From Anaerolineaceae bacterium (GTDB lineage: Bacteria > Chloroflexota > Anaerolineae > Anaerolineales > Anaerolineaceae), in NCBI GenBank assembly GCA_016841525.1, contig JAENYZ010000007.1, positions 1-49,072 of the forward strand: a stretch of 49,072 bases of DNA, written 5' to 3'. Position 1 is the first letter of the stretch. Each line of letters begins with the position of its first letter. The notes beneath the pieces were generated by a model. The model did no database searches and was not told the DNA's origin. It saw only the letters and a list, made by a program, of their open reading frames with translations. Below are positions 4,018 through 49,072 of the stretch, one piece after another. The position numbers and the translations under genes are program-made.

Positions 4018-4875
4018 ATGAATCAAAATACTGAAACCGAAAATTGGGACCTCATCATCACTCCCCGCAAAAAATGGTACGACCTGCAGCTTGCGGATGT
4101 CTGGCGCTACCGCGACCTGATCGCCCTCTTCGTGCGGCGTGACTTCGTCTCGCGCTACAAGCAGACCATCCTCGGCCCCCTCTGGTTCCTGATCCAGCCG
4201 CTGCTCACCTCCGTTGTCTTCACCGTCATCTTCGGCAACATCGCCCAACTGCCCACCGACGGACTGCCCCAGCTCTTGTTCTACATGTCCGGCAATGTCC
4301 TGTGGGGTTACTTCTCCAACTGTCTCACCAGCACCTCCAACACCTTCGTCGCCAACGCCCGACTGTTCGGCAAGGTCTACTTCCCGCGCCTGGTGATGCC
4401 CATCTCCACCGTCATCTCCAACCTGATCACCTTCGCCATCCAGTTTGTATTCTTCCTGGGCTTTTACCTGTATTTCTTCCTCAGCGGCGCGGACATCACC
4501 CTCACCCTCTGGGCATTCTCCCTGCCCCTGCTGATCCTCCTGATGGCTGGGCTGGGTCTGGGCTTCGGCATCATCATCTCCTCTCTCACCACCAAATACC
4601 GCGACCTGAGCTACCTGGTCTCCTTCGGCGTTTCCCTGTGGATGTACGCCACACCCGTCATCATCCCCGTCTCCAGCATCCCGGAGCGCTGGCGCTGGGT
4701 GGTGGACGTCAACCCCGTCACCCCGATCATCGAGACCTTCCGGGCGGGCTTCCTCGGCGCCGGCGACGCCTCCTGGGCACGCCTGGGCTACTCCGCCGCC
4801 TTCATGCTTGTGGTGATGTTCATTGGCGTGGTGATTTTTAACCGCGTCGAGAAGACGTTCATTGACACCGTTTAG
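4018..4875 (+). CDS. wzm: ABC-2 polysaccharide export permease (Wzm-like)
   Basis: A 285-residue permease of the Wzm/TagG/KpsM family. A cytoplasmic amphipathic start (WRYRDLIALFVRRDFVSRYK, then QTILGPLWFLIQPLL) precedes about six TM helices. Together with a Wzt ATPase it would move completed, lipid-linked polysaccharide across the cytoplasmic membrane. The matching ATPase is encoded 9 kb away at 13953, an unusual separation since wzm and wzt are normally adjacent. The sequence between them includes two decayed wzt starts, suggesting the pair was pushed apart by insertions. The gene is strongly GC-rich with C-ending codons, unlike the AT-rich genes from 7.9 kb on. ATG at 4018 directly follows the right arm of cassette A. 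Confidence 0.92.
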   Translation: MNQNTETENWDLIITPRKKWYDLQLADVWRYRDLIALFVRRDFVSRYKQTILGPLWFLIQPLLTSVVFTVIFGNIAQLPTDGLPQLLFYMSGNVLWGYFSNCLTSTSNTFVANARLFGKVYFPRLVMPISTVISNLITFAIQFVFFLGFYLYFFLSGADITLTLWAFSLPLLILLMAGLGLGFGIIISSLTTKYRDLSYLVSFGVSLWMYATPVIIPVSSIPERWRWVVDVNPVTPIIETFRAGFLGAGDASWARLGYSAAFMLVVMFIGVVIFNRVEKTFIDTV

Positions 4876-38575: not shown

Positions 38576-39012
38576 ATGGTGAACAGCAAGGAAAATTCGA
38601 GATATAAAGATCTTTTGGTTTGGCAGAGAAGCCTTTGTTTTGCCGATCAAGTCTTAGACCTGGTTGATACTATTGAGACATCAAGGAAGCATTATCGACT
38701 GTTTGAGCAATTAGAGGCTGCAGCAACATCCGTGCCTATGAACATTGCGGAAGGCAAAGGGATAACCTGAGCGGCTTCAAGCCGCATCAAGTGTATGCAG
38801 ATTTTATGTAAAATCTGTGGAATTCACAAAAAGAATTCATGCAATTCCTTTACATTGCCAGAGGTTCACTCTATGAGACGCTTACATTATTAGAGATATT
38901 CAAACTCAGAGGCTGGATCACTATTGACCAATTTAATGAATTTGAACAAAAGTCAAATGAAATTGCCAAAATGATCAATAGTTTAATAAAGGCAATCGCA
39001 CGGAATCTTTAA
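38576..39012 (+). pseudogene. Four-helix-bundle gene, copy C, interrupted
   Basis: From ATG 38576 the frame matches copy B through NIAEGKG, then ends at TGA 38768-38770. After position 38821 the match resumes in another frame (NSQKEFMQFLYIARGSLYET through AIARNL, stop TAA at 39010-39012). The C-terminal half is well conserved, so the break looks recent. The N-terminal 64-residue piece would lack helices 3 and 4. Confidence 0.88.
38761..38820. mobile_element. 60-base insertion made of two perfect palindromes
   Basis: Compared with copy B, about 60 bases replace four (CAGG expected) between the AAAGG and AATTC sequences. The insertion carries GCGGCTT-C-AAGCCGC (38771-38785) and CAGATTTTA-TG-TAAAATCTG (38798-38817). 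It has no coding capacity. The borders are set by comparison with copies B and D and may be off by a few bases. Confidence 0.65.
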
Positions 39013-39795: not shown

Positions 39796-40258
39796 TAGTC
39801 GGTAGCTTGTAGCCTGTAGCTCGTAGTTAGTAGTTCATAGTAATAAATTCAAACTAAATTGCCGAAAGTAATAGATGGAAAAAGAACGAGAGAATTCTAA
39901 ATACAAAGACCTTTTGGTATGGCAAAAGAGTATAACTTTTGCAGATCATGTTATTGAGTTAATTGACCATATTGAGACTTCTAGAAAACACTATCGACTG
40001 TGTGAGCAATTAGAATCAGCTGTCACCTCAGTTCCAATGAATATTGCTGAAGGTAAAGGCAGGAATTCATCAAAAGAATTTATGCATTTTCTCTACATTG
40101 CTAGAGGATCACTAACGATCAATACGATGAAGTTTAAAGTTTATCAAATGAAATTGCTAAAATGATCAACAGCTTGATCAGGGCAATCGCTCGTAGTGTT
40201 TAATTTTTTTGCTACCAGCTACCAACCACCAACTACTAGCTAAAATCTATCAACCACC
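39791..40258. mobile_element. Heptamer-flanked four-helix-bundle cassette D (broken)
   Basis: The left arm (39791-39842) has GTAGTCGGTAGCTTGTAGCC-type units; the right arm (40211-40258) has CTACCAG, CTACCAA, CCACCAA, CTACTAG units. The enclosed gene has an internal deletion. The left arm supplies the stop of the nucleotidyltransferase gene. Confidence 0.65.
39875..40203 (+). pseudogene. Four-helix-bundle gene, copy D, deleted and frameshifted
   Basis: From ATG 39875 the protein matches copies B and C up to LYIARGSL. About 50 bases for the end of helix 3 and the turn are missing there and the frame is lost (stop TGA at 40163-40165). In another frame the tail SNEIAKMINSLIRAIARSV is still readable to TAA 40201-40203, and one in-frame Glu codon has become TAA. 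This is a different lesion from copy C. Confidence 0.85.
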
Positions 40259-40526: not shown

Positions 40527-42389
40527 ATGATAGGTAAAAAAGGTAAATTAAGGCAAATTGTATTTGGTATTTTGTCGGGATTATTGTTGGTCATTGTGCT
40601 GGCAGCACTTGGCGTTCAAGGGGTTAAGGCTGTGCCCGATTTCTTAACATATGTTGATGATGGTGGCGCGGATGATTATCCTGGTCAAAAGGATATTAAT
40701 TTCCTTCAAAGGGGATACGATACTGAGTTCCCAGATAACTTGTACATAAATTGGGGACTTGATGACACCGACTGGTCTGGTCAAAATACGGGGGATGTTT
40801 GTGTATTATTTGACAGCAATGATAATGGAATGGCAGATTATTCATTTTGTATCACTGTTAATGGAACCCCTGCTGCGCTAACGGTTAAACAGTTATATTC
40901 TTGTGGTGATTCTGCTGCTGATAAATGTACTAATCCACGTGCTCCTATTCTTTTTGAGTCAACAGGAGTAGTAAGTATAGCTGAAGTGGACCCCTTTGGT
41001 ACCTTTGGAGGTCCATATTATGACCCATTACACGTAACAGGAAACACATGCAGTTTTAATTACGACCCATTTAATTGTTACACTTACGATACCTTTGTTG
41101 AGACAACAATCTCAGGCGTCGATTTGGCGGCAATGGGAAATCCCGAAATGATCAACGTTTGTTCATACCCCTCGGCGATCCCGGGTTCTGCGCCCTCCGA
41201 TTGTGTTTTCTTGCCCGGCGCTGGTTTTCTTGAGATTGTAAAAGTAGCAGACCCTGACGTAGCAACAAATTTTGTTTTCAATATGGGCGCAGGGCAAGCT
41301 TCAGCAGGGGGAGTAAGCAGCTGGACGATTAGCGGGAGTGGAATTGAAAGTTACATTTCATTTATGCCTGGGACAGGCTACGACCTTAGTGAAATTGTTC
41401 CGGATAGCTGGGTACTCACCAATGCCTCCTGTGTATTGAATGATGGGACATCAACCGGCACCTGGACGGGATCAACAATTACAGATTTCGCCATTCAGAC
41501 AGGGTTAATGACAACCTGTACGTTCACAAATGCTGCGGCAGTGGATGTAACAGTAACCAAGACGGATTATGATTATGCTCGTACCGCTCCTTATCCTCGA
41601 TACCCTTACATTGGTTCTGCGCTCCCATATAAAATCACGGTAGCAAATGAGGATATGCCAGGTGATATTCCCGCTCAGGGTGTGATAGTAACGGATAAGC
41701 TTGATGCAAACGTCTATTATGATCAAGCATGTCCTCCTGAAATTTGTCTTCCCTTAACAATCACCTCACCCACAGACTTTGATGGCCTTTCTCGCTCTTG
41801 CGCTTATGATGGCGGGTCTAATGTGATCACCTGCGATTTAGGAAGCATGGCACCGGGTGAAGTTGTCACCATCGATTTTGCTGTTATAGTTGGCCCAATG
41901 GCACCGACATACTACCTTGTTGAAATTGGGGAATGTACCCAGGGTACACCGAATTTGCAGGATGAGGTGATACCAGTTGATGTTTGTAATGAGGTATCGG
42001 TTTCGGCTACAAATGAAGTAGAGCCATACACTTTAGATAATTCCGACTCCGAGCCGACCGATCTTGGCGTACCTACCGCTGTCGATCTTCTCTCATTCAC
42101 AGCAACCGGCGTTGCAGGCGGGATCAGGCTCGATTGGGAAACAGAGATGGAAACAGATAACCTGGGCTTCAACCTCTATCGAGCCCCGTCACTGCATGCC
42201 CCCCGAACGAAAATCAATGAAGAACTCATCCCTGGAAACACCGGCGGCATGGGGGCTGCATATTTCTACATTGATGAGGTCAATTCACGCAATGTCTTCT
42301 ATTACTGGATTGAGTCTGTAGACATTCACAACTTTGCTGAATTGCACGAGGATTTTGCTTCAGCAAGGGCTTTGAAGAAGATCAAGTGA
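40527..42389 (+). CDS. Secreted DUF11-type surface protein
   Basis: A 620-residue protein. A Sec signal peptide (residues 1-37, LLLVIVLAALGVQGVKA) is followed by a unique region with several Cys, then a DUF11-like beta domain (about 345-460: VTVTKTDYDYARTAPYPR, PYKITVANED, VTDKLDANVYYD, GSMAPGEVVTIDFAV). The end resembles the C-terminal module seen in secreted Chloroflexi proteins (LLSFTATGVAGGIRLDWETE, DNLGFNLYRA). It has its own promoter and its stop overlaps the GTG start of the S26 peptidase gene. The Cys-containing N-terminal half matches nothing I recognise. It may be a cell-surface or filament protein, and a possible target of the adjacent peptidase. Confidence 0.78.
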   Translation: MIGKKGKLRQIVFGILSGLLLVIVLAALGVQGVKAVPDFLTYVDDGGADDYPGQKDINFLQRGYDTEFPDNLYINWGLDDTDWSGQNTGDVCVLFDSNDNGMADYSFCITVNGTPAALTVKQLYSCGDSAADKCTNPRAPILFESTGVVSIAEVDPFGTFGGPYYDPLHVTGNTCSFNYDPFNCYTYDTFVETTISGVDLAAMGNPEMINVCSYPSAIPGSAPSDCVFLPGAGFLEIVKVADPDVATNFVFNMGAGQASAGGVSSWTISGSGIESYISFMPGTGYDLSEIVPDSWVLTNASCVLNDGTSTGTWTGSTITDFAIQTGLMTTCTFTNAAAVDVTVTKTDYDYARTAPYPRYPYIGSALPYKITVANEDMPGDIPAQGVIVTDKLDANVYYDQACPPEICLPLTITSPTDFDGLSRSCAYDGGSNVITCDLGSMAPGEVVTIDFAVIVGPMAPTYYLVEIGECTQGTPNLQDEVIPVDVCNEVSVSATNEVEPYTLDNSDSEPTDLGVPTAVDLLSFTATGVAGGIRLDWETEMETDNLGFNLYRAPSLHAPRTKINEELIPGNTGGMGAAYFYIDEVNSRNVFYYWIESVDIHNFAELHEDFASARALKKIK

Positions 42390-42892
42390 AAAAATTAACG
42401 GATAAACCCTGGTCAGATGCGGATATTTGCGATCTGACCAGGGATCTTCTCCGGATGGGGAAATCCGTCCGTTTCCAGGCACGCGGAATGAGTATGAAAC
42501 CGCTTGTCAGGGATGGTGATATCATGCTTGTTGAGCCGTTTGGGCAAAAACTGCCCCGTTTGGGTGATGTGGTCTTGTGCCAAACAGAGAGTGGCAGGGT
42601 GCTTGCCCATCGCGTGATCGGGCGGCAGGGAAAGCTTGAGGAAAAAACCTATCTCATCCAGGGCGATCGAGCTGCGTATGCGGATGGCTGGATAAGCCAT
42701 GAACAGATTTGGGGGCGGGTTTCAAAGCTGGAGCGAGGTGGCAATGTGATCAACCTTGAAAATCCTTTTATGAAAGCTTTGGGGAAGTACGCAGCCTTTC
42801 GATCTCGATATGGATGGGGTAGGGGAAAATTGCAAACTTTCGGCACGATGATTGCCAGAAAGCTGCCTTATATAGGTACACTTATTAATTAA
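42386..42892 (+). CDS. S26-type signal peptidase-like serine peptidase
   Basis: A 168-residue protein. RGMSMKPLVRDGDIMLVEP carries the nucleophile Ser36. LAHRVIGR places His75 where bacterial SPase I has Lys, as in Sec11/SipW-type enzymes, and QGDRAAYADG provides the Asp94 region. No clear TM helix is present at the N-terminus, unlike true SPase I. Such S24/S26-like proteins occur beside PqqD-like proteins in RiPP-type loci, where they may process a leader. Translation starts at GTG 42386, overlapping the DUF11 stop by four bases. PqqD follows after a few bases. Confidence 0.82.
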   Translation: MKKLTDKPWSDADICDLTRDLLRMGKSVRFQARGMSMKPLVRDGDIMLVEPFGQKLPRLGDVVLCQTESGRVLAHRVIGRQGKLEEKTYLIQGDRAAYADGWISHEQIWGRVSKLERGGNVINLENPFMKALGKYAAFRSRYGWGRGKLQTFGTMIARKLPYIGTLIN

Positions 42893-42901
42893 AGGTATTT
42901 G

Positions 42902-43195
42902 ATGATGAATGACACCAAGTTTCAACGCAGCCCGGATTTTATCTACCGCAAGATTGTCGATGAATCGATCCTTGTGCCGCTCCATAAAGATGTGGTAGAT
43001 ATGGACGCCATATACACCCTGAACCCGGTTGGGGCTTTCATTTGGGATCAGCTGGAAAACCCTTTTAGTAAAGGGGAGATACATAACGCATTGCAAAATG
43101 CGTATGATGCAGAATCTGAGGTCCTGGACGCAGACCTTGTCCGTTTTCTTGAGGAGATGACAGCGATTGGTGCCATCATCGAGGTGGAGCAATGA
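42902..43195 (+). CDS. PqqD family protein (RiPP recognition element)
   Basis: A 97-residue protein of the PqqD fold. RSPDFIYRKIVDESILVPLH forms the N-terminal beta wing; TLNPVGAFIWDQLENPFSKG and a helical C-terminus follow. PqqD-like domains bind the leader of a precursor peptide and present it to a radical SAM enzyme. Its last codons overlap the radical SAM start by 4 bases (ATGA). AAAGG at 42891-42895 serves as ribosome site; ATG 42905 and TTG 42899 are other possible starts. Confidence 0.9.
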   Translation: MMNDTKFQRSPDFIYRKIVDESILVPLHKDVVDMDAIYTLNPVGAFIWDQLENPFSKGEIHNALQNAYDAESEVLDADLVRFLEEMTAIGAIIEVEQ

Positions 43196-44334
43196 GCTGC
43201 CCAAACATTCCTGAAATTGATTTAGGCGATTTAGGCGCAGCGATCCATGCCCAGATGAAAGGGCGCCGTTATCCCCTGAGCGGGATGATGGAGCTGACCG
43301 ACCGTTGTGATTTGAACTGCGTGCACTGTTATATCAACCAGCCGGCAGGCAGCAAGCAAGCCCGTTCGAAAGAATTATCCACAGAACAAATCAAAGACAT
43401 TCTCAGGCAGGCTGTTGATGCGGGAACCCTGTTTGTGACCTTTACAGGCGGCGAGGTTTTCCTGCGGCAGGATTTCCCTGAGATTTATACCTATGCCAGG
43501 CGGCAGGGTCTTCTGGTCACGATTTTCACCAATGCCACCTTGATCACACCTAAAATTGCAGATTTGTTATCCAATATTAGGCCGTATAGGGTTGATATCA
43601 CGCTTTATGGCGCAACCAAAGAGACCTACGAAAAGGTGACGCGAGTTCCTGGATCATATGCCCTTTGTTTGAACGGCATAAATCTTTTACGGGAAAGGGG
43701 TATCAAATTCTCATTGAAGACCATGTTATTGAACAGCAACAAACATGAACTGGCTCAAATGCAAGCCATGGCAGAGGAATTTGGCGTCTCATTGCGTTAT
43801 GATGGCACACTCTGGCCGAGAACGGACGGCGGCTTGGCGCCAATTGAGCAGCAGATCCCGATTGAAGAAATGATCGCCATGGATTTTGAGGATCCGGAGC
43901 GTCGGGCGGAGTGGATCAGGCTGGCACGTGATTTTGGTGGTTTTCTCAGCAGGAAAAAATTTGTGTTTAGCTGCAATGGGGGGATGCAAAGCTACCACAT
44001 TGACAGCGCAGGAAACATGTGTTTCTGTACCATGGTCAGGGATCCTGCGTGCAGTTTAGGGGAAATGTCTTTTATTGAAGCATGGGAAAAGATCGGTGAA
44101 TTGCGGAAGTTAGAGCGGCAGTTGAGTACACCCTGCCAGACCTGCACCCTGGGGGCTTTATGCACACAGTGCCCGGGCTGGTCACAGGCGATCCATGGTA
44201 ACAATGAGACCCCTGTGGAATTTAATTGTGTGATTGCCCACGAAAGAAAAAAACAGGTTAATCAATATTTAAGGTATAATGCATTCATTGAGGAGAATGA
44301 GGAGGCAATGAGCTATGAAAAAGAAAAAGTATGA
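43192..44334 (+). CDS. SPASM-domain radical SAM peptide maturase
   Basis: A 380-residue radical SAM enzyme. The [4Fe-4S] motif C39-x3-C43-x2-C46 lies in LTDRCDLNCVHCYIN, with GGEVFLR as the SAM-binding Gly motif. The C-terminal SPASM region has FSCNGGMQSYHIDSAGNMCF and then CQTCTLGALCTQCPGW, with enough Cys for two auxiliary clusters. This layout is that of PqqE/AlbA/QhpD-type maturases that form bonds on ribosomal peptides. It overlaps PqqD by 4 bases at its start and the 53-residue peptide gene by 20 bases at its end, which strongly suggests that peptide as substrate. Confidence 0.93.
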   Translation: MSCPNIPEIDLGDLGAAIHAQMKGRRYPLSGMMELTDRCDLNCVHCYINQPAGSKQARSKELSTEQIKDILRQAVDAGTLFVTFTGGEVFLRQDFPEIYTYARRQGLLVTIFTNATLITPKIADLLSNIRPYRVDITLYGATKETYEKVTRVPGSYALCLNGINLLRERGIKFSLKTMLLNSNKHELAQMQAMAEEFGVSLRYDGTLWPRTDGGLAPIEQQIPIEEMIAMDFEDPERRAEWIRLARDFGGFLSRKKFVFSCNGGMQSYHIDSAGNMCFCTMVRDPACSLGEMSFIEAWEKIGELRKLERQLSTPCQTCTLGALCTQCPGWSQAIHGNNETPVEFNCVIAHERKKQVNQYLRYNAFIEENEEAMSYEKEKV

Positions 44335-44476
44335 AGCGCCGGTAGTCAAGCGGGTTAAGCTTGAGATTAGGGGAGCTATAATGTCGGCTTGTCATTCAAG
44401 TATGATTATTGAACCAAGTGGAGAAGGCATGGTATGCAGGGAGATTACAAGTATGTGTGCCAATCCATTGACCTAA
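44315..44476 (+). CDS. RiPP-like precursor peptide (53 aa, three Cys)
   Basis: A 53-residue peptide. It begins MKKKKYEAPVVKRVKLEIRG: a Lys-rich start and Y6-x-x-P9-V10, close to the YxxPxL leader motif that PqqD-like domains recognise in lasso and related precursors. The second half is a likely core with SACHSSM (C26), GEGMVC (C41) and TSMCANPLT (C48), rich in Ser, Thr, Met and Cys. GGAGG at 44301-44305 is nine bases upstream. It lies 20 bases inside the end of the radical SAM gene in another frame, so translation is coupled. It is too small for default gene calling and could be missed. Product and bond type are unknown; thioether (sactipeptide-like) links from the Cys residues would fit a SPASM enzyme. 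Confidence 0.8.
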   Translation: MKKKKYEAPVVKRVKLEIRGAIMSACHSSMIIEPSGEGMVCREITSMCANPLT

Positions 44477-44488
44477 AATTATTTTTCT

Positions 44489-44523
44489 GCCTTTATGTGG
44501 AAAATTATATAAAAGGCTTCCAC
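44489..44523 (+). promoter_or_regulatory. Overlapping alternative hairpins between precursor and kinase genes
   Basis: GCCTTT (44489-44494) pairs with AAAGGC (44512-44517), and GTGGAA (44497-44502) pairs with TTCCAC (44518-44523). The two stems interleave, so they would compete. No T-run follows. They could act as an RNA-processing or attenuation site that keeps precursor expression above that of the kinase. Confidence 0.35.
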
Positions 44524-44600
44524 GATATATAATTTAAATTACTTGTTGATTTGGTGATTTGTGGAATCTAATTTTAGAAATATAAATTATCTGGTGGTAT

Positions 44601-45497
44601 TTGTTTAAATTTAATCTAAATATAGCTGATCTTTGGCTTCAACTGGAAACAAAAAGTGAGCAACGCAATATTTCTATTCCGGAAAGCCATAAGAAATTTT
44701 ACCAGCCTGTGGGTAATTCGCAGGCTGATTTTACGTTAACCTCCAAAGCCTCTAAAAATTTATCACAGGAATTAAAGTTGATTTTTCAGAATGGCTTTCC
44801 CGAGCATCAGGTTGATTTTGGGATGCCGCTGCTGCAAACCACTTCCTGGGATTTATGGGAAGGCAAGGATAAATATTACACCTTATTTATCAAAGAAGAT
44901 ATCCCGCCGCGCCTGGCAAGGGTCGACCACAAATTCACACAGGGGGACTTGTTTGTGGGGCATTCCATTAGTCGTAAAGCCTTTTATCCCCTGGGGCAGC
45001 TTGAAATCAGGTTGTTTTCTCTATGGCTGGCGACCCTCGGGGATATTATCCTGCATGCTTCTGGGGTCGTAAAGGACGGCAAGGGCTACTGTTTTTTGGG
45101 CGAATCAGGCGCGGGCAAATCGACCCTGGCACGCGTCCTTGCTAAAGATCCTCAAGCGACGATTTTGGGGGAGGATACCATCATCCTTCGCTATTTGGAT
45201 AGGGGGTTCTGGATTTTCGGTACGCCCTGGCACCTGGACTCGGATTTTTGCTCACCCGTTGGCGCACGCCTTGAGAAAATGTTCTTTTTAGACCGATCCA
45301 AACCAAATGGCATTAATCTTGCACCCAATACGGTTGGGATAAGCAAGGTCTTACAGACCGCAGTTATCCCCTATTACCATCCTGATGGGTTGTCCAAAGT
45401 TTTGGATAATCTGGTATTATTATCGGGTTTGGTGCCGTTTTTCAATTTCAGTTATCGATTGGGTGCTGATGCATGGAAATTAATTCTGACTGCGTGA
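44601..45497 (+). CDS. HPr kinase-like ATPase (HprK-related, RiPP-associated)
   Basis: A 298-residue protein. The P-loop GYCFLGESGAGKSTLARVLA is near residue 167, preceded by ILHASGVV, as in the HPr kinase fold. It lacks the N-terminal domain of true HprK, and no HPr gene is near. HprK-related kinases recur beside PqqD and radical SAM or similar maturases; their substrate is unknown and may be the precursor or its product. The start is taken as TTG 44601; GGTGG upstream is close. GC use varies little from the operon. It is probably the last gene of the operon. Confidence 0.82.
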   Translation: MFKFNLNIADLWLQLETKSEQRNISIPESHKKFYQPVGNSQADFTLTSKASKNLSQELKLIFQNGFPEHQVDFGMPLLQTTSWDLWEGKDKYYTLFIKEDIPPRLARVDHKFTQGDLFVGHSISRKAFYPLGQLEIRLFSLWLATLGDIILHASGVVKDGKGYCFLGESGAGKSTLARVLAKDPQATILGEDTIILRYLDRGFWIFGTPWHLDSDFCSPVGARLEKMFFLDRSKPNGINLAPNTVGISKVLQTAVIPYYHPDGLSKVLDNLVLLSGLVPFFNFSYRLGADAWKLILTA

Positions 45498-45526
45498 TCA
45501 CAAAAGCTTTGGAAAACTTTGTATCT

Positions 45527-45548
45527 TCAGCTTTGAATTCAAAGCCGA
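45527..45548. repeat. Near-perfect palindrome before the C25 peptidase gene
   Basis: GCTTTGAATTCAAAGC (45530-45545) is a perfect 16-base palindrome, flanked by TTC and GAA that extend it with one mismatch on each side. It lies just after the kinase gene, 115 bases before the peptidase start. It may be an operator or an end-of-operon hairpin; no T-run follows. Confidence 0.45.
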
Positions 45549-45662
45549 AAACTCTTTTGTGCCATACACGACTCGGGACCCATTCTAAGATAGCAGTAGT
45601 TATTAATGATGGGAATGTTTTGGCATGTTAATTTTCAAACTGAATCCTGAGGCAGCAAAATA

Positions 45663-48600
45663 ATGAAAAATCTACGAATCTCTCTTATTGTTATTATTCT
45701 TTTAGTAATGATTGGCAGTCCTTTTTTCTCTGCCAGTAATGATGTTTTTGCATCGGGTAACGATCGAAAAATTGATTCCGGATCATCAACTTCTTTATTA
45801 AATCAAGGATCGATTATAGATCAGTCTGCTCAAATCTCAACGGATGACCCGGTGCAGTTGAAATCCTCATCTACAACGGGTTTAACCTTTGAGATAACAA
45901 TTCCCTGGGAAGAGCTCAATCTTAATCCAATCACTGTGGACAACAAGGAGTTTGTCCAGGTAACGCTTCCCGGTTGGGACCTGACATCAGATCCCGGCGC
46001 ACCCGAGCTGCCAGTTTTCACAAGCCTGGTCGGTGTGCCCATAAGCGCGGGGATCGAGATAAGCGTCCTTCCGGGCATGTCCCATACCCAGGACCTGTCA
46101 GGGGATGTTTTACCGAAGGTGACACAAATTGCCAACCAGCAATCCTTTTCGGAAGATATGGAAAATTGGATAGATTCAGAACCTGTTCTGGTTTATGAAA
46201 TGGCCCCGACAGTCTATCAGGCCCAGGCAGCTTATCCTGGTGTATTGGCGGAAATCAGCCAGGATGGTTATTTGCGGCAGCAGCGGGTGGCAGGATTGTC
46301 GGTTTACCCGGTGCAGTATAATCCGGGTGAAAAGCAAATTACAGTTTATGAAACCTTGCAGATCACAGTGAACTTTACAGGTGATCCTGTTTTACAGAAT
46401 AAGGTTCAAAAAGAAGACTCACAAATCTTTGAAAATCTTTACGCTGAAACTTTGCTGAATTATGAGGATGCAAGGGATTGGCGAAAATCAGCAGATCTTG
46501 AAGCCTCGCCTCAATCCGATAGCCAGGGGAGTTTGACATCCTGGTCGCCCCCGAGTCAATCATGGCGCATCAATATAAGGGAAGAGGGCATGTACCAGCT
46601 CACCTACCTAGAGCTGCAAAGTGCGGGACTGCCTGTGGATAGCCTGGATCCGCGCAGTCTTCAGATGTTTTATCTTGGAAATGAAGTCGCCATCCAGGTC
46701 GAGGGCGAAGAAGATGGCGTCTTTGACCAGGGAGATCTCATTCGATTTTATGGGGAGGGTATCGCCTCAAAATATACGTTTGATAATGATTACTGGTTGA
46801 CCTACGGTCAGGTGAGCCAGGGTTTACGCATGGGAACCAAGGATGGCGCCCCGGGAGCGGCTGCCGCACCAGAGTATTATATGGAAACACGCCGCTTTGA
46901 AGAAAATAAATTATACATACCTGATGCTGATGTTGATGAAAATTGGCTGTGGAATCGAATGGCAGTTACATCCAGCACGTCTTTTACCCACATGTTTACT
47001 CTAGAAGCGCCTATCTCAAGTCCTGCTGTTGTCCGTGCAACGCTGCTCGGTTTTATTTCAAGATATGTTAGCCCAGATCATCATGTAAATATCTACGTCA
47101 ACGACATAGAAGTCGGCGAGGTATTTTGGGACGGATTGACCTGGCAAATGCTTGAGGCTGACATCCCAGCGGGGGTACTGCAGGCTGGAGACAACACGAT
47201 TACGATAACCGCCTTGTTTCTTCCAGGTTTGTCTTATGATTACATTCCCTATGACATAATTTTCCTGGATTGGATTGAATTGGAATATGCCAGTTCATTT
47301 TTGGCAGAGAATGATCATCTGGCATTTGACTATGACAGCCCCGGTACCTGGAAATTCAATATAGACGGTTTTACCAGCGACCAGGTCCTTGTCTATGATG
47401 TTACCGACCCTAGCGCTGTCAAAGGGTTTACCGGGGCAGAAGTAAGCCCAACAGGTCTTGGATACGCACTTGCCTTTGAGGATGATATTACCTCGCTTAC
47501 AAATTACTTTGCCCTGGAATCTTCCGGATACCGGCAGGTTCAGGGGATTGAAAGCGATGCCCCTTCAAATTTGCAGGCGGTAACCAATGGGGCGGATCAC
47601 ATCATTATCACCCCTACCGATTTTACAGCGGCATCGACAAGTCTCAGGGATTATCGTCAATCCCAGGGGCTGCGTTCGATGGTCGTGGACGTGCAGGATA
47701 TTTATGATGAATTCAACTTTGGGATTGTTGACCCGTCTGCCATCCGTGACTTTTTAGCTTACGCGTACAATACCTGGTCTGGGACCCCACCTTCCTTTGT
47801 TGTTTTGGTGGGGGACGCCACCTATGACCCCAAGAATTACACGGGTTACAACACAAAGAGCTTTATTCCAGCATATCTTCTGCCGGTGGACCCCTGGATG
47901 GGGGAGACGGCTGCGGATAACCGTTATGTCACCATTTCTGGCACAGATATCATGCCGGATATGATGCTGGGGCGGATTTCCGTCAACAGTGCTGCCGAGG
48001 CTCAAGCCTTTGTGAACAAGATTATCGAATATGAATCTGCGCCTGACGATGATTGGAAAAACCAGGTTCTGGCTGTGGCAGATGATATGGATTCCGCCGG
48101 GGACTTTGCCGCCCTTTCAGATACCCTGCTATCGTGCTGTTTTTCAGAAGATTACAGCGCAGAAAAAATTTATTACAAAATCTCACCTTATACGGATACA
48201 ACAATTACCCAAAACGCGATCAAAAGCAGCATCAGCGCCGGGAAGTTCCTGGTAAATTATATCGGGCACGGTTCAACTGCATCATGGGCAGGTGAATCTT
48301 TGTTCCATTCGACTTATGTCTCCTCATTAACAAATGCTGGTAAATATCCAATTGCTGTGGTCATGGCTTGCTTGGAAGGCTATTACATCCGGCCCCAGAC
48401 CACGTTGAATTATCACGCTGTGGGGGAGGTCTTCACCCGGGCTGTTGATAAAGGTGCTGTTGCCAGCTGGTCTGCAACTGGAGAGGGTGTTGCTAGCGGG
48501 CATACCTATCTCAACCAGGGCTTTTATAACGCCGTATTCCAGCAAAATGCCGGCACTGTTGGCGAAGCGACCCTGGCAGGGAAGCTCAATCTTTTCTCGG

Positions 48601-49072
48601 TTGGTGCCAGCCCGGATTTGTTGGATACTTACCTTCTATTTGGGGACCCCGCCACAGTTATCGGCCAGCTATTCAGAGCTGCAGACGATACCTATTCGAC
48701 AAGTCAGGATACACCTTTGTCTCAAGCTGCACCAGGCGTCCTTTCGAATGATATTTATTCGGGCGAGGGCTCACTATCTGCGGTCTTGGTAAGTAATGCA
48801 GGCAATGGCAGCGTGACACTTAATGCTAACGGTTCCTTCACTTACACGCCCTCCTCAGGTTTTACGGGTATGGACAGCTTCACTTATTTTGCGACTGATG
48901 GCACCCTGGACAGCAACACTGCCACGGTAACGATCACGGTTACGGGCGATGAGCTCAACCAACCGCCTGTGCTCAACCCCATTGGCGATAAAACCATAGC
49001 AGAACTCAGTCCCTTAAACTTTACAGCGACAGCAACAGATCCCGACCTTCCTGCAAATACGCTGACCTTCAG
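45663..49072 (+). CDS. Gingipain-like C25 cysteine peptidase with cadherin-like repeats (3' end outside window)
   Basis: An open frame of at least 1136 residues that runs past the window end. A signal peptide (residues 1-30, LIVIILLVMIGSPFFSASN) and a long beta-rich propeptide precede the C25 domain (about 640-1000): HIIITPTDF, VVLVGDATYDP, then NYIGHGS (His869) and VVMACLEGYY (Cys903), the catalytic pair. The end signature LLFGDPATVIG is present. From about residue 1010 come Ig/cadherin-like modules (APGVLSNDIYSGEGSLSAVL, GSFTYTPSSGFTGMDSFTYF), then NQPPVLNPIGDKTIAELSPL. Family enzymes cleave after Arg or Lys and can process surface proteins in C25-based secretion systems. It follows the RiPP operon by 165 bases, but no shared promoter is clear. 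Confidence 0.88.
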   Translation, partial: MKNLRISLIVIILLVMIGSPFFSASNDVFASGNDRKIDSGSSTSLLNQGSIIDQSAQISTDDPVQLKSSSTTGLTFEITIPWEELNLNPITVDNKEFVQVTLPGWDLTSDPGAPELPVFTSLVGVPISAGIEISVLPGMSHTQDLSGDVLPKVTQIANQQSFSEDMENWIDSEPVLVYEMAPTVYQAQAAYPGVLAEISQDGYLRQQRVAGLSVYPVQYNPGEKQITVYETLQITVNFTGDPVLQNKVQKEDSQIFENLYAETLLNYEDARDWRKSADLEASPQSDSQGSLTSWSPPSQSWRINIREEGMYQLTYLELQSAGLPVDSLDPRSLQMFYLGNEVAIQVEGEEDGVFDQGDLIRFYGEGIASKYTFDNDYWLTYGQVSQGLRMGTKDGAPGAAAAPEYYMETRRFEENKLYIPDADVDENWLWNRMAVTSSTSFTHMFTLEAPISSPAVVRATLLGFISRYVSPDHHVNIYVNDIEVGEVFWDGLTWQMLEADIPAGVLQAGDNTITITALFLPGLSYDYIPYDIIFLDWIELEYASSFLAENDHLAFDYDSPGTWKFNIDGFTSDQVLVYDVTDPSAVKGFTGAEVSPTGLGYALAFEDDITSLTNYFALESSGYRQVQGIESDAPSNLQAVTNGADHIIITPTDFTAASTSLRDYRQSQGLRSMVVDVQDIYDEFNFGIVDPSAIRDFLAYAYNTWSGTPPSFVVLVGDATYDPKNYTGYNTKSFIPAYLLPVDPWMGETAADNRYVTISGTDIMPDMMLGRISVNSAAEAQAFVNKIIEYESAPDDDWKNQVLAVADDMDSAGDFAALSDTLLSCCFSEDYSAEKIYYKISPYTDTTITQNAIKSSISAGKFLVNYIGHGSTASWAGESLFHSTYVSSLTNAGKYPIAVVMACLEGYYIRPQTTLNYHAVGEVFTRAVDKGAVASWSATGEGVASGHTYLNQGFYNAVFQQNAGTVGEATLAGKLNLFSVGASPDLLDTYLLFGDPATVIGQLFRAADDTYSTSQDTPLSQAAPGVLSNDIYSGEGSLSAVLVSNAGNGSVTLNANGSFTYTPSSGFTGMDSFTYFATDGTLDSNTATVTITVTGDELNQPPVLNPIGDKTIAELSPLNFTATATDPDLPANTLTF

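Follow-up and report, generated by a model that had tools for sequence, protein, structure and literature searches.

Linear polyphosphorylated peptides (LPPs) are described for the lpp cluster of Paenibacillus alginolyticus by Popov et al. 2026 (PMC13381572). According to the accessible part of that article, LPP clusters encode a leader peptidase (LppS), a recognition element (RRE) for ribosomally synthesized and post-translationally modified peptides (RiPPs; LppB), a kinase (LppK), a nucleoside triphosphate (NTP) transferase (LppN), and the MsbA-like LppD. The HprK-like LppK phosphorylates core residue Ser3, and the cleavage site lies directly after the 15th residue past the leader Tyr. LPP clusters are located in capsule loci and are called restricted to Bacillota. 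In paeninodin, the acceptor of the kinase is the C-terminal Ser (PMC9266682, accessible part). Here, we analyze a related gene cluster, probably a RiPP pathway that acts on a 53-residue precursor peptide, in a stretch of 49,072 nucleotides from an Anaerolineaceae genome (JAENYZ010000007.1, positions 1 to 49,072; the window). The window belongs to contig C2 (62,986 bases) of a 3.2-Mb genome in nine contigs; the nearest named relative is a Brevefilum metagenome-assembled genome (locus L004), whose radical S-adenosylmethionine (SAM) enzyme is 88% identical. The cluster is composed of the following features.

42386..42892, + strand: S24/S26-like peptidase (archaeal/SipW-type), candidate leader peptidase; GTG start; S36, H75, D94
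42899..43195, + strand: PqqD-type discrete RRE; TTG start, ATG at 42902; PF05402, E 6.9e-15, above cut-off
43192..44334, + strand: SPASM radical SAM peptide maturase; Radical_SAM, E 9.9e-24, above cut-off
44315..44476, + strand: precursor peptide, 53 residues; ATG start, AGGAGG upstream
44315..44377, + strand: precursor leader, residues 1–21 (with YEAPVV), if the cut falls in the LPP register
44378..44473, + strand: predicted core; Cys26 at 44390–44392, Cys41 at 44435–44437, Cys48 at 44456–44458
44399–44401, + strand: candidate phosphosite Ser29, at the position three past the first Cys
44601..45497, + strand: HprK/PEPCK-fold kinase-like protein; TTG start; H152, K173, E191-D192 (not Asp-Asp)

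The five genes and their overlaps lie where the original prediction, made from the letters of the window, had placed them: the start of the S26-like gene overlaps the stop of the upstream DUF11-type gene by 4 bases (42386–42389), the PqqD and radical SAM genes overlap by 4 bases, and the radical SAM and peptide genes by 20 bases. The single gene unit proposed there holds from the S26-like to the HprK-like gene, but the recurring neighborhood reaches farther, to a C25 peptidase downstream and, in the closest clade, to a DUF11/FN3-like protein upstream.

The 53-residue peptide has no match in Pfam or NCBIfam. Yet a search named beforehand, for homologous peptides after the radical SAM gene of relatives, finds one directly at that position in all 33 related loci (22 + 11; E ≤ 3.3e-7), of which 15 contributed peptides to the locus-search profile and match by construction, the other 18 being independent (7 of these, L172–L174 and L179–L182, are one family, f46, with six near-copies). 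This confirms that the conserved peptide gene is real and not due to chance. The remaining small open reading frames (ORFs) listed in the 22-locus set have E ≥ 0.06 against the peptide profile. In addition, a profile of 18 precursors matches 22 of 147 genomes of the family, namely all 19 that have the radical SAM gene (E ≤ 1e-80) and 3 of the 128 that do not (Fisher 4e-21, kinship uncorrected). Of the three latter matches, L200 is this cluster truncated at the end of a contig, L198 is a cluster that is complete but diverged, and L199 is another system with RRE-, HprK-, and S26-like genes.

The predicted residues Y6, P9, and V11 and the Cys at 26, 41, and 48 are all present, and K4, Y6, P9, L16, and C26 do not vary among the 18 aligned precursors. 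The consensus is K-x-Y-x-x-P-x-V-x-x-V-x-L-x(6)-L-x-x-C, followed by two further Cys. Of 32 Tyr-type precursors, 31 have a spacing of 20 residues from Tyr to the first Cys, and L024 has one of 21; in the eight Trp-type precursors, from Deltaproteobacteria and archaea, the spacing is 21 or 22. The number of Cys from the first onward is mostly three (two in L124 and L021, four in L019 and in the three precursors of L020). Outside the Cys, the core varies between species, as is usual for RiPP precursors. A lipoprotein reading of L-x-x-C was rejected: by eye there is no signal helix, and mostly no Gly or Ala before the Cys.

The RRE is present in 32 of 35 loci, and the remaining three are cut by the contig start. 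In profile searches of the PDB it matches the lasso protein TbiB1 (2.5e-10), LppB (7.8e-8), and PbaB1 (4.6e-7). Asp70 of LppB hydrogen-bonds the leader Tyr, and Asn33 is assigned to the kinked Pro (PMC13381572, accessible part); a related recognition of W/Y/LxxP is reported in the accessible part of PMC12710340. All 42 RRE rows have Asp at the counterpart of Asp70, and 39 have Asn at that of Asn33, the exceptions being L012 and L024 with Thr and L022 with Asp. Asp70 is also kept in the RREs beside Trp-type leaders, indicating that this residue alone does not set Tyr versus Trp here.

The radical SAM motif C39xxxC43xxC46 is complete in 22 of 22 relatives, and so is the SPASM set (C261, C279, C315, C318, C324, C327, and C346), for which the Pfam model scores 15.5 of 21.5 bits, under its cut-off. 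The best PDB sequence match is SkfB (E 2.8e-12). The enzyme resembles the NCBIfam models of the mycofactocin and PqqE maturases, and none of the best 25 NCBIfam models listed for it comes near its cut-off. Elsewhere in the genome, a second RRE–radical SAM pair consists of two adjoining ORFs (G000:C5:637546-639441), each with a PqqD-like stretch and a radical SAM match.

The S26-like peptidase likewise scores under the cut-offs of Peptidase_S24 (23.2 of 23.3 bits), Peptidase_S26 (18 of 22.9), and TIGR02228 (39.2 of 51.85; E 6.1e-10). Residues S36, H75, and D94 are nevertheless invariant in 23 of 23 aligned relatives, and the triad S29/H68/D93 of LppS is like them in kind (PMC13381572, accessible part). 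No transmembrane segment is seen by eye. The AlphaFold2 model has a pLDDT of 85.6, and its Foldseek matches to signal peptidases are weak (best E 1.2e-3). Of the 35 loci, 25 encode a relative of the peptidase, which in L009 and L102 does not adjoin the RRE.

The HprK-like protein is present in 35 of 35 loci. Its AlphaFold2 model (pLDDT 89.4) superimposes on HprK/P with Z of 10.7–11.4 and a root-mean-square deviation of 2.7–2.9 over 114–120 residues, and on PEPCK with Z up to 12.4 and a deviation of 5.0–6.3, indicating that the modeled protein has the HprK/PEPCK fold. Single ORFs that carry both radical SAM and HprK-like domains (L017, L019, L023, and L098) connect the kinase with this pathway. 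The fused ORFs are about 650–680 residues long (L098:14611-16581, for example); the L023 copy runs off the contig.

Given the adjacency and co-occurrence of the precursor and the radical SAM gene, the residues conserved in the active sites and in the core, and the folds of the models, we consider it likely that the cluster is a RiPP pathway in which the RRE, the SPASM radical SAM enzyme, the HprK-like kinase, and the S26-like peptidase act on the 53-residue precursor. The product is very probably a small modified peptide with three Cys. The conservation of the RRE, the SPASM Cys, the kinase P-loop, and the peptidase Ser/His/Asp supports the RiPP-like reading of the original prediction. The RRE would bind the YxxPxV leader and present the precursor. 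The SPASM enzyme would modify the core, most likely by cross-linking at least one of the three Cys, with a thioether as the best guess. The HprK-like enzyme would phosphorylate a core hydroxyl, most likely that of Ser29, three residues past the first Cys, and the S26-like serine peptidase, by analogy with LppS, would cut the leader after residue 21 or 24. More speculatively, the phosphate may be decorated by an NTP transferase encoded 10 kb downstream, and the C25 peptidase, which is secreted, may have the extracellular product as its substrate or its partner.

Several observations weigh against this pathway. The S26-like gene is not found within 2–7 kb on each side in L101, L119, L124, and L103, or within the flanks of 2.9 and 1.0 kb in L100. 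As had been noted from the window alone, there is no exporter among the cluster genes, where the search was not extended to exporters genome-wide; an MsbA-like transporter is absent from the 8 cluster proteins and 10 downstream proteins scanned, and the ABC genes farther away (window positions 4018 and 13881) are of the ABC-2 and Wzt types. The cleavage site is not fixed. The residue at Tyr+15, where the cut would fall in the LPP register, is Ala, Ser, or Thr in 18 of 18 precursors of the window's kinase clade, but in the D-group precursors it is Ala in 10 of 19 and Asp or Glu in 9 of 19; six of these nine have a longer spacing from Tyr or Trp to Cys, so that the position may not be equivalent. 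The residue at Tyr+18, two before the Cys, is small (Ala, Gly, Ser, or Thr) in 17 of 18 and 15 of 19 precursors, respectively, as counted from the printed rows, which would fit the −3/−1 pattern of signal peptidases. From these patterns, cuts after residue 21 and after residue 24 appear equally possible. Finally, with the substitution at E191, the HprK-like protein may have lost the ability to phosphorylate a peptide.

To this last point belongs the alternative that survives best, in which the HprK-like protein of the window's clade is an ATP- or GTP-driven regulator or chaperone, and only the radical SAM enzyme, the RRE, and the peptidase act on the peptide. All 19 loci of this clade (the Glu-Asp clade), which has a long branch (1.35–1.56), have Glu as the first residue of the Asp-Asp pair, and the C-terminal Ser/Thr of the precursor is mostly lost there. 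However, H152, the P-loop residue K173, the second Asp (D192), R197, and GTPWH stay invariant (22 of 22 relatives), and a Ser or Thr at Cys+3 is likewise invariant in the Glu-Asp clade. We regard this alternative as unlikely, though worth keeping in mind, and prefer the phosphorylating pathway.

The same residues suggest where the acceptor lies. The comparison comprises 43 rows in which kinase and precursor are both present, near-copies included. In the 22 rows with an Asp-Asp kinase, the last residue of the precursor is always Ser or Thr, and Cys+3 is Ser or Thr in 9. In the 21 rows with an altered pair (Glu-Asp in 19, Asp-Glu in L198 and L022), Cys+3 is always Ser or Thr, and the C-terminus is Ser or Thr in 5; the window precursor ends in Thr. 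One genome, G006, holds both kinds: L004 (Glu-Asp, ending in Val) and L103 (Asp-Asp, ending in TS). Considered with the C-terminal acceptor of paeninodin, this covariation suggests that the acceptor may have moved to the internal Ser29 together with the change of the kinase pair. The altered pair needs only two changes in the HprK tree (two to three in bootstrap trees); therefore, we treat the covariation as a hypothesis, not as a statistical result. Its statistics were rejected as independent proof, because a sign test on two changes cannot reach significance and Fisher values ignore kinship. Left out of the comparison are L016 and L023 (no precursor found), L020 (precursors ending in A, D, and S; no kinase found at the locus), and L017, where a 33-residue candidate ending in CKRNA stands beside an Asp-Asp kinase, contrary to the rule. 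The near-copies L179–L182, which the counts of Tyr-to-Cys spacing and of Tyr+15 exclude, are part of this comparison; L179 and L182 were entered with the letters of L172, and L180 and L181 with those of L173 (one leader residue differs).

Two secreted proteins flank the cluster.

45663..49072, continuing past the window, + strand: C25 peptidase (gingipain/PorU-type), secreted, 1185 residues in all; PF01364, E 6.8e-89
40527..42389, + strand: SpaA/DUF11-type protein with a C-terminal FN3-like domain (named by eye), secreted; PF24514, E 9.9e-08, above cut-off

Gingipain proteases and the PorU sortase belong to the C25 family. The protein encoded here is the only C25 peptidase of the genome; it has the propeptide domain PF08126 (E 2.2e-21) and Ig/cadherin repeats, and matches the PorU model at E 6.9e-83, yet under cut-off. 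Of the 35 loci, 27 (16 of 19 in the Glu-Asp clade, 11 of 16 others) have a C25 match that begins about 0.1–0.7 kb past the one to HprK. A contig-cut copy in L100 was dropped by the filter, and L115 and L176 end 429 and 5 bases after HprK. The active-site residues H869 and C903 are present in all 27 copies that cover them; the L100 copy is cut. Across the family, C25 is found in 18 of 19 genomes with the radical SAM gene (E ≤ 1e-80) and in 41 of 128 others, two of which, G064 and G124, do contain the cluster in a diverged or truncated state. C25 is therefore a frequent partner of the cluster, not an exclusive one. The row of L198 reads RRE, radical SAM, peptide, HprK, S26, C25, and NTP_transf_5.

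This linkage is what would favor a second alternative: the peptide, made rigid by modification, would inhibit the neighboring C25 peptidase or serve it as a propeptide-like partner. But C25 is not found within 2–5 kb in L010, L011, L012, L175, and L177, many C25 genes occur without the cluster, and the DUF11-type protein and polysaccharide genes are neighbors as well. We consider such a role improbable. Equally doubtful is an extended form of the RiPP pathway, a new class in which a radical SAM cross-link at Cys26 and phosphorylation at Ser29 would fall within four residues, the acceptor would have switched from a C-terminal Ser/Thr as the pair changed from Asp-Asp to Glu-Asp (or Asp-Glu), and the peptide would then be processed by C25 or joined by it to a surface partner. 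A redox-cofactor pathway of the pyrroloquinoline quinone or mycofactocin kind, with the peptide as the source of a small cofactor, shares with the cluster the PqqD–SPASM radical SAM pair and a radical SAM enzyme similar to those maturases, but it is very improbable, as the three-Cys core is highly variable between species, unlike a conserved cofactor core, and the kinase-like protein and the peptidase also count against it.

The DUF11 model itself scores under cut-off in the upstream protein. A similar protein lies upstream of the radical SAM gene in 15 of 19 loci of the Glu-Asp clade and in 2 of 16 others; three of the four clade loci that miss it begin within 13 bases of the radical SAM gene. 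Its FN3-like domain (42060–42386) recurs at three other places in the genome, two on C8 and one on C5, and is possibly a sorting or attachment domain.

Farther upstream, the six proteins scanned include an ABC-2 permease, a Wzt-type ATPase, a glycosyltransferase, a sugar transferase, and sugar-nucleotide genes; downstream there is a Wzz-like protein (score under cut-off). The cluster is thus located in a polysaccharide locus. The genome's only PF14907 (NTP_transf_5) protein is encoded about 10 kb downstream on the same contig (G000:C2:55129-55887). Between HprK and C25, 155 of 166 bases of the stretch 45498–45662 are identical to L004, and the stretch is present in only 2 of 41 genomes; it is possibly a regulatory element or a recent exchange. 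An ORF at 45473–45631 was rejected for now as a second peptide gene: its substitutions relative to L004 (4/3/4) have no codon-position bias, and it occurs in 2 of 41 genomes. A search of Rfam with 44300–45900 gives a single match, far under the gathering score. The window also carries two copies of a 23S rRNA-intervening-sequence-type protein, the first (38576–39012) apparently split into two ORFs and the second (39875–40165) matching PF05635 at E 2.7e-22.

The radical SAM enzyme is found in 19 of 147 genomes of the family (E ≤ 1e-80) and in 16 of 400 genomes sampled across the phylum (E ≤ 1e-60). Outside the phylum, L011 (Nitrospinae/Nitrospinota) and L012 (Acidobacteriota) carry related clusters. 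A more distant group comprises 12 loci (L013–L024) with one to three radical SAM genes, mostly with RRE, S26, and HprK, in Deltaproteobacteria, archaea (methanogen genomes), and one more genome of the window's genus; L014 has an MsbA-like exporter. The precursors of L013–L024 were found by motif, so that the motif in them is no evidence of conservation. Trp-type precursors (WxxPxL...PEExVLxxCK) occur in L013, L014, L018, L019, L020 (three in a row), L021, and L098 (L098:14159-14401), in Deltaproteobacteria, archaea, and one genome of the window's genus, adjoining radical SAM, RRE, and mostly S26 and HprK genes. L097 (L097:6144-9643, contig ~51143-54642) encodes three consecutive proteins with signal-peptide-like starts and a shared N-terminal P-x-S-[FY]-YG motif, one of them with MBG repeats.

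Among the matches listed in our literature search, which left subscription journals mostly outside, we find no published description of a cluster that combines radical SAM, signal-peptidase-like, and HprK proteins. The pathway would join two RiPP worlds, radical SAM peptides and phosphorylated lasso or LPP peptides, in one short sequence of steps. The pathway is found repeatedly in Chloroflexota, and related forms exist in Nitrospinota, Acidobacteriota, Deltaproteobacteria, and methanogen genomes. It predicts that the acceptor site of the kinase has changed, suggests that leader peptidases of the signal-peptidase-like kind are not confined to Bacillota, and places a C25 peptidase beside a RiPP; "C25" and "gingipain" do not occur in the accessible main text of a leader-peptidase review (PMC10885120).

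Compared with known systems, the cluster resembles the SynChlorMet cassette (SCM; TIGR04248–TIGR04251) in that ScmD, ScmC, ScmE, and ScmF all match as weak homologues. However, the scores are far under the cut-offs (ScmC 19.9/125 bits, ScmD 26/100, ScmF 87.5/400, and ScmE 79.4/400), the L014 proteins tested do not reach them either, and the window cluster has one radical SAM gene, against one to three in the related deltaproteobacterial and archaeal loci. "SynChlorMet" is not mentioned in the literature searched. With maturases of sactipeptides and ranthipeptides (SkfB), the radical SAM enzyme shares the full SPASM Cys set, and thus two predicted auxiliary clusters, as well as a Cys-containing core; unlike in those systems, there are a separate RRE gene, a kinase-like protein, and an S26-like peptidase. 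With paeninodin-type lasso peptides (PMC9266682 and PMC13381572, accessible parts), the cluster shares a discrete RRE, a [YW]xxP leader, an HprK-like kinase, and a nucleotidyltransferase, and the Ser/Thr-ending precursors of sister loci with Asp-Asp kinases recall the C-terminal Ser of paeninodin. Unlike lasso systems, the genome has no leader peptidase B2 (PF13471, 0 matches), a radical SAM enzyme being present instead; an asparagine-synthetase-like macrolactam cyclase is absent from the scanned cluster proteins, a genome-wide search not having been made.

The closest likeness is to LPP, as described in the accessible part of PMC13381572. Both have a SipW/archaeal-type signal-peptidase-like peptidase (recognized here from its sequence), a discrete RRE with a YxxP leader, a kinase that is HprK-like by fold and motif (here with Glu for the first Asp), an NTP transferase (here about 10 kb away), and a polysaccharide-locus setting. 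The HprK-like and S26-like proteins, which the original prediction called less usual members, are both core members of LPP clusters, and the kinase also occurs with paeninodin-type lasso peptides; the label "uncharacterised" holds for the form with a radical SAM enzyme and not for the LPP-like core, which has been described. Unlike LPP clusters, the window cluster has a SPASM radical SAM enzyme, a three-Cys core, and a C25 peptidase, and it has no MsbA-like transporter; "radical SAM" does not occur in the accessible text of the LPP article. Its precursor does not follow the consensus YxxPxVLxHQxIxFETxxS, of which only YxxPxV is common to both, and clusters of the window type are found in records of Chloroflexota, Nitrospinota, and Acidobacteriota, whereas LPP is called restricted to Bacillota. 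Since the precursor consensus and the transporter of LPP are lacking, we do not call the cluster an LPP. It is a radical SAM relative of LPP, probably an RRE-guided RiPP system that joins ordinary logic with a new combination of enzymes.

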